The notes below the pieces were generated by a model. The model saw nothing but the letters and a program-made list of their open reading frames with translations. It searched no databases and was not told the origin of the DNA. 34,218 bases of DNA from Thermotogaceae bacterium (lineage in GTDB: Bacteria > Thermotogota > Thermotogae > B21-G9 > HyVt-16), in NCBI GenBank assembly GCA_029981435.1, contig JARRBB010000014.1:1-34218 (forward strand), read 5' to 3'. This document shows, one piece after another, positions 463-8,291 of this stretch; position 1 is the first letter of the stretch; every line of letters begins with the position of its first letter. Position numbers and translations under genes: made by a program.

Positions 463-580
463 TCTTAGAATTGTCGAAGGGACCATGAAGGTCTCACTTC
501 TAAGAATTTTTTAGAACTTTCAAATCAGGCCATGAAGGTCTGTACATTATGAAAATAATGTGCAGACCTTTTTATTTTTG
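463..580 (+). ncRNA. putative cis-regulatory leader (riboswitch-like): two GGNCC-AUGAA-GGUCU hairpins, the second mutually exclusive with an intrinsic terminator
   Basis: stem TCTTAGAA(463-470)/TTCTAAGA(498-505) encloses gggacc-atgaa-ggtctc (479-495); second hairpin caggcc-atgaa-ggtctg (526-542); its 3' arm (537-542) is also the start of the terminator stem 537-550/555-568. Confidence 0.7.
537..580 (+). terminator. intrinsic terminator in the leader of the FmdE/ABC operon
   Basis: 14-bp stem GGTCTGTACATTAT-gaaa-ATAATGTGCAGACC (one G.U) followed by TTTTTATTTTT. Confidence 0.8.
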
Positions 581-602
581 GAATATGAAGGGGGAAGTAT
601 CG

Positions 603-2360: not shown

Positions 2361-3395
2361 ATGGAAGAATACAGAGAATACATAAGAAGAAAAGTAATCT
2401 TCAGTTTGCTGTTAACTGGTGCATTGATTTTCACCTTTCCATTTGCTTTGGGTGTAGGTTCTTACAAATTGACGTTTTCGCAAATTTGGAAGGCCTTTTT
2501 TAACCATGATGGTGCGGCAGGCATGATAGTCTGGAACATACGTTTGCCGAGAGTGTTAACTTCAATATTTGTTGGTGCATCACTGGCAATTTCAGGAGCA
2601 GTTATGCAGACTTTGCTTAAAAATCCCCTCGCAAGTCCATTCACCATGGGTATTTCACATGGTGCCATGTTTGGTGCATCGCTCGCTATACTTTTATTTT
2701 CTGGAAGTGAGGAGAGTACCGGAAGGATAATGGTGGAAAACCCTTACTTCATCGTACTTTTTGCCTTTACCGGTTCTATAATCGGGGTTTTTATAATTCT
2801 CTCTCTCGCAAGATTAAAAGGTCTAAGCCCTGAGGCTGTTATACTTTCAGGTGTTGCAATAAGCTCTTTTTTCATGGCGGGAACAACTTTGCTGCATTAT
2901 TTTGCCGATGAATTGCAGCTTGCAGCCATGGTTTACTGGAGTTTTGGAGATCTCGGTAGAACAGCTTGGAATGAATTGTTTTTGGTAATCATTTCATTCG
3001 GGATAATCTTTTCTTATTTTGTTTTCAAAAGTTGGGATTTAAACGCAATTGAAGTTGATGAGAGTGTTGCAAAATCTCTTGGAATAGACACCACAAAGCT
3101 GAGATTTTTTGGCATAATTTTGGCATCTTTGATAGCTTCCATCACCGTTGCCTTTGTTGGTGTGATAGGTTTCATTGGACTGATATGTCCGCACATGATA
3201 AGACTAATAATTGGTAGTGATCACAGATTTTTGATACCAGCTTCTGCCTTGTTAGGTGCTTTGATACTTATGGTTTCCGACATGTTCTCTAAGATTATAT
3301 TATCTCCCACCGTAATTCCGGTGGGGATAATAACTTCTTTTATAGGTGTACCCCTCTTTATGTACCTCCTCCTTAGAGTGGAGGTGAGAAGATGA
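2361..3395 (+). CDS. FecCD/BtuC-family ABC permease
   Basis: RLPRVLTSIFVGASLAISGAVMQTLLKNPLASPFTMGIS... and GFIGLICPHMIRLIIGSDHR motifs. Confidence 0.92.
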   Translation: MEEYREYIRRKVIFSLLLTGALIFTFPFALGVGSYKLTFSQIWKAFFNHDGAAGMIVWNIRLPRVLTSIFVGASLAISGAVMQTLLKNPLASPFTMGISHGAMFGASLAILLFSGSEESTGRIMVENPYFIVLFAFTGSIIGVFIILSLARLKGLSPEAVILSGVAISSFFMAGTTLLHYFADELQLAAMVYWSFGDLGRTAWNELFLVIISFGIIFSYFVFKSWDLNAIEVDESVAKSLGIDTTKLRFFGIILASLIASITVAFVGVIGFIGLICPHMIRLIIGSDHRFLIPASALLGALILMVSDMFSKIILSPTVIPVGIITSFIGVPLFMYLLLRVEVRR

Positions 3396-4141
3396 TAAAA
3401 GTGGAGAATTTGATTTTTTCATACAATGGAACTCAGGTATTGAAGAATTTGAATCTCGAAATAAAACCCGGTAAAATCAGTGCGATACTCGGACCAAACG
3501 GAGCAGGTAAATCAACCTTTTTAAAATGTTTGAATGCCATATTGAAGTCAAAAGGTGGTTGTATTTACATAGATGGTGTTGACATAAATAGATTTGATTT
3601 GAAAGATATCGCAAAAAAAATTGGATACGTTCCTCAAAAGAGCAATCCGGTTTTGACAACCGTCTTTGATTACGTCCTTCTTGGAAGAAAACCTTACATA
3701 AGTTTCGGTATTAAAAAGGAGGATTTGAGAATCGTTGAAAATGCTCTTGAAACTCTTGGAATTGAAGAAATAGCTATGAAAAAGCTGAACCAGCTGAGTG
3801 GTGGTGAACTTCAAAAAGTTGTCATTGCAAGAGCATTTGCTCAACAAGCTAAGATTTTTCTGCTTGATGAACCCGTGAACAATCTCGATTTGAAAAGCCA
3901 GTACGAACTTATGAAGCTTTTAAAAAGGCTGACTTTCGAAAAAGAAATAACGGTTGTTATCGTTTTGCATGATATAAACATCGCATTGAGATTTGCGGAT
4001 GAATTCGTATTCATGAAAGAAGGGAAGATAATCGCAAAAGGTGGAAAGGAAATCGTTACTCCTGAATTAATCGAGGAAGTTTATGGAATAAAGGTACAGA
4101 TCGAAGAAATATCAGGTATTCCAGTCCTGGTATATTCCTAA
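3392..4141 (+). CDS. FecE/BtuD-type ABC transporter ATP-binding protein
   Basis: Walker A GPNGAGKST, signature LSGGE, Walker B IFLLDEP; overlaps permease. Confidence 0.93.
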   Translation: MIKVENLIFSYNGTQVLKNLNLEIKPGKISAILGPNGAGKSTFLKCLNAILKSKGGCIYIDGVDINRFDLKDIAKKIGYVPQKSNPVLTTVFDYVLLGRKPYISFGIKKEDLRIVENALETLGIEEIAMKKLNQLSGGELQKVVIARAFAQQAKIFLLDEPVNNLDLKSQYELMKLLKRLTFEKEITVVIVLHDINIALRFADEFVFMKEGKIIAKGGKEIVTPELIEEVYGIKVQIEEISGIPVLVYS

Positions 4142-6051: not shown

Positions 6052-8214
6052 TCACCTCAAATCAAGATCAAATCTACTATGTATTGCTTTCACAGCTTCA
6101 TTTGCAGATTCCTTGGATATTATCACTGAGATTCTGCTGTTTGAAGCACTTATCATGTCTATGTTGATCCCCTCATTCGCAAGCGTTTCAAAAATCGCTG
6201 CAGCTATTTTTGGGGTCGATGTAAGGTTGACTCCAACAACAGATACTTTCGATATATCTTTTTCAATTATCACTTCCTGAGCCTGACTTCTTTCTTTCAA
6301 GAGTTCTGTATCAAGGTTTTCAAGTTCCGATGATGGCATTATGAAAGCAATTGAGTTGTATTTACCCTCTCTCATACTCTGAATTATCATATCGATGTTT
6401 ATTTCATTCTGTGAAAGCGTTCTCATTATTCTCGCCGCGACCCCCGGCTTATCAGGAACATTTTTGAGAACAACCTTGACAACGTCGCTGTCAATTGTAA
6501 CAGCTCTGACAACAGGTTCTTCCACTTTGCTTCCCTCCCATATCAGTGTTCCTCTCCAATTCGAATTGAAATTCTTAACGACAACTTTGACACCGTATTT
6601 TCTCGCAAATTCCGCTGCTCTTGCCTGTAAAACTTGCGAACCGTGTCTTGAAAGCTCTATCATCTCTTCCCATGAAAGTTCCTTTATGGGTCTGGTATTT
6701 TCAACGATTCTGGGATCTGCCGTGAATATACCGTCAACATCTTTGTAAAGCTCGCAGATATCCGCCCCTATTGAATGAGCGAGTGCGATCGCCGTTAAAT
6801 CCGACCCGCCTCTTCCAAGTGTGGTTATGTCACCGGTTCTTGCAATTCCCTGAAATCCTGCAACCACAGGTATGTATCCAAGTTCGATGTACCTGGACAC
6901 GATTGATGTGTTTATGTTTTCTATTCTGGCCTGACCATGTTTTTCGTTGGTGATGATTTTGAGTTGTTCGCCTGTCAGAGATATTGCTTTGTATCCAAAG
7001 TCTTTCAATATCAGACTCATCAGAGCGACGCTCTGAATTTCACCGGTGGAAAGTAACAGATCGAGTTCTCTTGGATCGGGATTCTTTGATGCTTTTTTCG
7101 CCATCTCTATCAGATTGTCGGTGGTATCCCCCATCGCCGAAAGGACGACAACGGGTTTTACACCGGTTTTTATCTTTTCTTCTATTTTCCTTGCGACGCT
7201 TTTCATCTTTGAAATATCTTCCACGGAAGCACCGCCGAATTTCATAACAACAACTGAATATCTACGTTGCTGGAGCATGCTTTTATATTTTGCCACCCTG
7301 AAAAGATCAGCAATTATGGCGCTTGCAGTTGGATTGCCACCGGCACCTCTTCCTCTTAAAAAGAAATTACCTGCTAAATCCGTTGAAACCTCAACACCAT
7401 TTTCCACGCCGTCAACACTGTACAAAGGATCACCGGGTTGTATTTCTTCGAGTGATACCATAAAAATTCCATCATGAAGATCGGCTGTCCCCACAAGCTT
7501 CAATTTCATACCTTTCTGATTAATGGCAATCAGCCTGCTTGAATCAATACTGCTTATTCCTTCGATTTTTACATTTTTCAATCCGGGAAATTTTCCTGTG
7601 ACTATCCCTGCAAGTACGGATATTTTGTATCCCAGATCGTAACCTTCAATATCGTTAGTTGGATCTGCTTCTGCATAGCCATTTTTTTGAGCATCCTTCA
7701 GCGCTTCTTCAAACGAAAGGCCTTTTAACATTTCGGTGAGGATGTAATTGGTTGTACCGTTCAAGATTCCTCTAATTTTGGTGACTTTGTGGAATATCAA
7801 ATAGTCCTGAAGGAGAGATATTATAGGTATTCCACCACCAACTGCTCCTTCGAAGAAGAGTTTTTTGTGCTTTATGAATTCATAGAGTTCATTACCGCAT
7901 TCTGAAATTAAATTTTTGTTTGCTGTTATAACTATTTTTCCGAGTTCCAGAGCCCTTTGTACAAGAGGAAAAGCTGCATCGATACCACCGATCGTTTCTA
8001 CTACAACGTCACTGTTAATTATTAAATCATCAAAATCACTGGCTATTAAATCAGAGGAAATGTTTAACGTTTGATACTTGATTGGAGAGCGGTTCAAAAC
8101 TCTTGAAACTATAAATTTTTCACCTGTTCTTTCTTCTATTTCTCTTGATCTTTCAGTGAGAAGTCTGTACACAGCCCCCCCAACAGTTCCAAGACCAGCA
8201 ATACCAACACGCAT
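6052..8214 (-). CDS. bifunctional homoserine dehydrogenase (N-terminal) - aspartokinase (C-terminal) fusion with two ACT repeats
   Basis: [13 protein letters not shown] ... [10 protein letters not shown] (HSD), then [16 protein letters not shown] ... [13 protein letters not shown] (AK) and two ACT domains; start MRVGIAG at 8214 has a GGAG SD. Confidence 0.93.
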
Positions 8215-8291
8215 GAGAATCACTCCAGATTATTTTTTAAGGATTTTACCATATTGTTTTTGAAAAAGTTAGAAAAAATTTTTAAGATAAC

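Follow-up and report, generated by a model that had tools for sequence, protein, structure and literature searches.

A tandem pentaloop-hairpin leader upstream of an fmdE operon belongs to a conserved RNA family that very likely serves nickel and cobalt genes

The stretch of DNA analysed here (the window; 34,218 nucleotides of a Thermotogaceae bacterium) carries an operon that opens with fmdE (603-1289, + strand), whose product joins an FmdE core (Pfam PF02663, 144.7 bits) to a C-terminal zinc finger of the dksA/traR type (PF01258, 29.8 bits). It is followed by genes for a periplasmic substrate-binding protein (Peripla_BP_2, 1286-2356, + strand; Pfam 89.7 bits), a FecCD/BtuC-type permease (2361-3395, + strand; Pfam FecCD 308 bits, the best NCBIfam models being BtuC, below cut-off) and an importer ABC ATPase (3392-4141, + strand; Pfam ABC_tran, with an NCBIfam FecE-type match below cut-off). 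The likely start of fmdE is at 603 or 606, after a GGGGG-type ribosome-binding site at about 590-597; the same frame continues upstream without a stop codon to an ATG at 549, which falls within the loop of the terminator described below (window 549-602). Further along, on the minus strand (6052-8223), a gene that reads by eye as a homoserine dehydrogenase-then-aspartokinase fusion adjoins others that look thrC-like and thrB-like.

Between the promoter and fmdE lies a leader (463-580) built around two hairpins, each of which, as the earlier note had described, carries an identical AUGAA loop closed by CC/GG pairs. HP1 (479-495, + strand) is a 6-bp stem, GGGACC/GGUCUC, with its pentaloop at 485-489, and was identified from sequence, fold and alignment alike; HP2 (526-542, + strand; CAGGCC-AUGAA-GGUCUG), the putative antiterminator, has a conserved core that consists of its inner 4 bp (528-531/537-540). 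The two stems differ at three positions (A-U/G-U, G-U/A-U and G-C/C-G), with pairing kept each time, and the position just outside the 6-bp stem is unpaired in both. An intrinsic terminator stem-loop follows on the same strand (534-571; 17 pairs including G-U, a GAAA loop, and a U-rich tail at about 569-579), and it overlaps HP2: bases 534-542, which are the last three loop bases and the entire 3' arm of HP2, are also the first bases of the terminator, and the two structures are therefore mutually exclusive. The attenuator architecture proposed earlier is thus borne out. The terminator is by far the stronger of the two (-24.5 kcal/mol, against about -3 for the 4-bp core of HP2), and a single-strand fold of the leader favours it; the low fold energy of the region (z = -5.3) is due mostly to the terminator. 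The linker between the hairpins (496-525, + strand) may form an A/U-rich middle hairpin: TTCTAA (498-503) and TTAGAA (511-516), previously suggested to be alternative pairing partners, are indeed complementary and are predicted to fold in this way, but the sequence of the linker is not conserved.

The pair of hairpins is not readily produced by base composition, since only 1 of 20,000 dinucleotide shuffles of 463-580 gives two hairpins that are 6 bp or longer and share both the loop and two closing pairs. Both copies of CCATGAAGG within the window lie in the leader, the tandem is single-copy in the window's genome (by exact pattern and by a descriptor run over 1.98 Mb), and a covariance model scores 77 bits at the leader against 23 for the runner-up in that genome. 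We regard the window element and its switch geometry as real to a near certainty.

Just upstream stands a probable extended -10 element, TGGTATAAT (451-459, + strand; TATAAT at 454-459, TG at 451-452), from which transcription would be expected to start at about 466-468. This promoter has no good -35 element (3/6 match), and a consensus scan called no promoter there. Among the 21 aligned members of the family described below, 16 have a TATAAT match of at least 5/6 located 5-30 nt upstream of HP1, compared with 19% of random positions, and HP1 therefore probably sits right at the transcript's 5' end. The outer stem TCTTAGAA/TTCTAAGA (463-470/498-505), with which the element had been drawn from 463 onward, fares less well. 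It is not conserved among the relatives, and with a start near 467 its 5' strand is probably not fully transcribed; we conclude that the leader RNA probably lacks this stem. Two candidate leader peptides within the hairpins, MKVSLLRIF and MKVCTL, were dropped for poor ribosome-site spacing and want of conservation.

Within Thermotogota the leader is known from one genome, which is also the only one of 103 Thermotogota genomes in which FmdE was found by protein similarity; a search with the FmdE protein as query against genome contigs gave no match. Orthologues of the binding protein, 62-63% identical, are present in a single further genus of Thermotogota (Thermotoga-like), where the orthologous operons carry a TrmO_N-domain gene in place of fmdE and no hairpin leader upstream. 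The closest foreign operon (L045; FmdE 46% and binding protein 53% identical) has no tandem-hairpin leader, nor do 30 FmdE loci of other genomes. In one Thermotoga-like member frame changes and a stop codon disrupt the orthologous binding-protein gene (G094:C1:255405-256428, minus strand). Since the close orthologues lack the leader, the search was widened beyond Thermotogota.

A pattern scan of GTDB species genomes for two CCATGAAGG cores returned at least 116 stretches, and nearly all of the genomic matches listed, as well as the viral ones, are coding repeats or chance. One locus in a Thermoanaerobacteraceae MAG (L292) stood out, with a TATAAT box, HP1 (GCAGCC-AUGAA-GGUUGC), HP2 (GACC-AUGAA-GGUC) and a terminator that starts inside HP2, followed by a DUF3842-CooT-FmdE-CbiM-PDGLE-CbiQ-CbiO operon. 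A covariance model built from this leader and that of the window, run against 399 genomes of the MAG's phylum, found L339 (upstream of DUF3842-CooT-FmdE-CbiM and further genes) and L338 (upstream of a CooT remnant and then CbiM), and a search for DUF3842 in the small class of L292 added L348, whose HP1 is GCAAUC-AGGAA-GAUUGC. The CooT remnant of L338, at about 1160-1200 between leader and cbiM, is frameshifted. A second covariance model, made from these five leaders and run against 399 genomes related to that of L338, yielded about 20 more, bringing the relatives to about 25 in about two dozen genomes, all in Bacillota. Some genomes have two leaders: G414 has one before CbiM and one before a NikABCDE-like operon, and in G529 two divergent leaders precede CbiM and DUF3842-CooT. 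The covariance-model matches L340, L362 and L372 were set aside as plain terminators, L371, L319-L328 and L343-L345 as chance or coding, and a second CCATGAAGG pair in the window's own phylum (L005) as a coding-looking chance match.

Alignment of 21 members defines the family. HP1 is a 6-bp stem and HP2 keeps a 4-bp core, with a linker of 27-50 nt (median 37) between them. The loop is not strictly AUGAA, as the window alone had led the earlier note to propose, but ANGRA (AUGAA, AAGAA, AGGAA, ACGAA, AUGGA and ACGGA, with AUGUA once as the sole exception); A1, G3 and A5 are strictly conserved, the second base is variable, and the innermost closing pair is nearly always C-G. In helix 1, 98.4% of cells are paired and five of the six pairs show changes on both sides; the models used to choose the members favour paired bases, and this inflates the first figure more than the second. 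Cells changed on both sides number 51 against 19.9 in shuffles, and the covariation score of 0.595 (0.234 in shuffles) was reached by none of 500 shuffles; sliding the partner by 1-3 columns lowered covariation far below this in every control. RNAalifold recovers HP1 and the HP2 core when no structure is supplied, with compensatory changes in 7 of 10 pairs, from an alignment that was fitted to the covariance model and hence leans towards its structure. The 5' arm of an intrinsic terminator takes in HP2, wholly or partly, in 25 of 26 leaders, L355 being the single leader without one, and these terminators (-16 to -36 kcal/mol) are far more stable than the HP2 core alone (about -2 to -6). The overlap usually takes the form of a whole RCCAUGAA pairing with UUCAUGGY before the U-run; the window uses only the end of the loop and the 3' arm. 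The conservation and covariation that the earlier note had named as a test are thus present in other leaders, but in Bacillota, the Thermotoga-like orthologues having none, and its reading of two equivalent binding units is supported. Judged against Rfam 15 and the open papers searched, this is a conserved and undescribed family of antitermination leaders.

These data bear directly on the two readings in which no regulatory RNA is involved. The GACC-N5-GGTC quasi-palindrome, two copies of which lie 47 bp apart shortly after the promoter, is what might be expected of paired DNA operators, bound by a dimeric repressor or activator, beside an ordinary terminator. However, the arms of HP1 vary freely and yet compensate, G-U pairs included, and it is therefore pairing, not sequence, that is conserved; moreover 47 bp is about 4.5 helical turns, placing the copies on opposite faces of the DNA, and HP2 lies within a terminator in all but one of the leaders. 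We consider DNA operators very improbable. The single copy in the window's genome and its absence from the Thermotoga-like orthologues would likewise fit a decayed tandem repeat before a constitutive partial terminator, with no regulation at all, but against this stand the shuffling result given above and an element that is conserved, and covaries, in two phyla and precedes genes of related function. For the family this reading is refuted, and we give such an accident next to no credence overall.

Most leaders directly precede nickel or cobalt genes, namely CbiM, NikA-like binding proteins, DUF3842-CooT(-FmdE), CobN and DUF4198. Outside the first five leaders, the gene served is CbiM in seven cases, a NikA-like SBP_bac_5 protein in five, and DUF3842 and/or CooT in three; CobN, DUF4198, ZnuA (L368) and DUF3344 (L366) follow others of the newly found leaders, the last two not being clearly nickel or cobalt genes. 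The gene after L351 has no Pfam match and looks NicO/HupE-like by eye, and that after L370 is masked. The family very likely has a nickel/cobalt role. As to the ligand guessed at the outset, the metal or oxyanion imported by the operon, its class is probably nickel/cobalt, and the genes served do not point to molybdenum or tungsten oxyanions.

Several neighbouring features are worth recording. In two of the five NikA-like cases (L359 and L369) a gene for a SAM-dependent methyltransferase lies behind the leader and before the binding protein, possibly as part of a metallophore pathway. TrmO_N-domain genes head the binding protein-FecCD-ATPase operons of L007, L008 and L010 (Thermotoga-like), and one also follows the leader-controlled NikABCDE-like operon of G414 (L521 6195-6500); TrmO_N proteins may be tied to nickel and cobalt import. 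The Rfam scan also finds cobalamin riboswitches near two of the leaders (L360, 831-1017 and 1796-1981, minus strand; L355, 181-370, plus strand), which suggests that cobalamin riboswitches and the tandem-hairpin controls act in one cobalt/nickel neighbourhood.

The same scan gave no match to a known class at the window or its relatives, in agreement with the initial impression of novelty, and comparison with known metal- and ligand-sensing RNAs sharpens the point. The NiCo (czcD) riboswitch, a four-way-junction aptamer found mostly before metal exporters, resembles our family in placing nickel- and cobalt-related transport genes under RNA control, and its Rfam covariance model matches neither the window, nor the L292 leader, nor any of 20 member loci scanned. 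The Moco RNA motif, likewise a leader RNA for metal and cofactor genes and the obvious guess from the name FmdE, is a large multi-stem aptamer, whereas the genes downstream of our family point to nickel and cobalt. Guanidine-II (mini-ykkC) is alike in form, with two small tandem hairpins and near-identical conserved loops, but those are ACGR tetraloops upstream of guanidine exporters, and the opposite regulatory sign would be expected for an importer. The guanidine-II, Moco and cobalamin models find no match at the leaders. Sub-threshold Rfam resemblances to sau-5971 and trpB amount only to hairpins plus a terminator, and CsrA target hairpins were rejected on the loops, which lack GGA (GAA occurs in 20/21 HP1 and 16/21 HP2).

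A true riboswitch, in which two small tandem aptamers of the guanidine-II sort bind Ni2+, Co2+ or a metal cofactor directly and so stabilise HP2, has more to recommend it: the two units are near-identical, loop bases A1, G3 and A5 never change, the RNA holds every component needed, and the genes downstream are metal-related. The sign speaks against it, however. HP2 excludes the terminator, so that stabilising HP2 raises expression, and excess metal would turn uptake on; in addition, a pentaloop whose second base varies leaves little from which to build a specific metal site, and the NiCo, Moco and mini-ykkC models are unmatched. We consider a riboswitch unlikely. As uptake is needed when metal is scarce, a metal-free protein is likelier than the metal itself as the stabiliser, and of the two binders entertained in the earlier note, a small ligand or a dimeric RNA-binding protein, the switch sign argues for the protein over a metal.

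The closest known system is that of the dual-hexaloop leaders read by ANTAR sensors (EutV/eut, NasR/nasF, AmiR/amiE), which have two tandem hairpins, the second embedded in the terminator, with conserved loops that start with A and include a conserved G (PMC3369931, PMC8934654). As in our family, termination would be the default and binding of the loops would give read-through. The pentaloop could then be a variant of the hexaloop, with an ANTAR protein holding both hairpins. The details diverge: ANTAR leaders have six-nucleotide terminal loops with A at position 1 and G at position 4 (PMC3369931), whereas all 21 members have five-nucleotide loops (ANGRA, save for the one AUGUA) with an invariant A1, an invariant G at position 3 and conserved C-G closing pairs. 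Their hairpins and terminator overlap in the same manner, but E. faecalis eut linkers are 5-12 nt and 14 nt already impaired induction (PMC3369931), against 27-50 nt here, and ANTAR targets are mostly nitrogen genes, with neither nickel nor cobalt named in a paper on them, while our leaders serve nickel and cobalt genes. A search for the ANTAR domain (PF03861) in the window's genome gave no matches, in a test whose sensitivity is unproven, as 14 of 14 control genomes were equally silent. An ANTAR reader seems rather improbable, and the family, which shares the working principle of ANTAR leaders, should be kept apart from them.

Overall, we favour the view, at a probability of roughly two in three, that the leader is a member of a conserved RNA family that governs genes for nickel and cobalt uptake and handling by antitermination, with a putative dimeric apo-protein as stabiliser. 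Consider a transcript that begins just upstream of HP1. HP1 (6 bp) and HP2 (4-6 bp) would display two C-G-closed ANGRA pentaloops, and by default the nascent RNA would go on to form the strong terminator containing part or all of HP2, stopping transcription before the first gene. A factor that holds HP1 and HP2 by their loops would allow HP2 to persist, block the terminator and let the operon be read. We infer that this factor is a dimeric RNA-binding protein to which the two loops present two sites, and that it binds RNA in its metal-free form, switching uptake on when nickel or cobalt is scarce; an apo-metal RNA-binding protein is, on this reasoning, a likelier stabiliser than metal.

FmdE forms a domain-swapped dimer that holds a metal (Zn or Ni in one structure), and it has a zinc finger that has been proposed to bind RNA or to sense metal (PMC2954224). 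Its gene adjoins the leader in the window, L292, L339, L360 and L366 (the last encoding an FmdE without the zinc finger), and DUF3842 adjoins five leaders; both are candidate readers. A DUF3842 gene is also present in the window's genome (L412 3327-3761, contig C36), within an unrelated cluster, and its product is 58% identical to the DUF3842 protein of the L292 operon. CooT, a nickel-binding protein, is missing from the window's genome and therefore cannot be the general reader. That the reader belongs to a non-ANTAR class of RNA-binding metal sensors, such as an FmdE zinc-finger dimer or DUF3842, whose apo form antiterminates nickel and cobalt uptake genes, is a tentative proposal to which we give slightly less than even odds.

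Whether the window's own operon imports these metals is a separate matter. Its importer is of the FecCD/BtuC type, and the substrate could be a corrinoid, haem or an iron chelate instead of nickel or cobalt; a search of the window's genome for [NiFe]-hydrogenase motifs found none, and in 2009 six Thermotogae were classed as non-users of nickel (PMC2667541). For the family at large the implications are broader. NikR is present in fewer than half of the bacteria that have NikABCDE (PMC2667541), which implies that nickel is regulated by other means in the rest, and control of nickel and cobalt uptake by this leader is best read as NikR-independent. A leader placed before CbiM/NikM, NikA-like, CooT and CobN operons offers a testable answer to how nickel is sensed in many anaerobes. 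If the proposed mechanism is true, anaerobic Bacillota, and at least one of the Thermotogota, would have in this system a counterpart to NikR that acts after initiation, and FmdE and DUF3842, proteins of unknown function, gain a concrete hypothesis. Antitermination by paired hairpins, familiar from nitrogen genes and their ANTAR proteins, would also exist with other loops and, probably, another reader.
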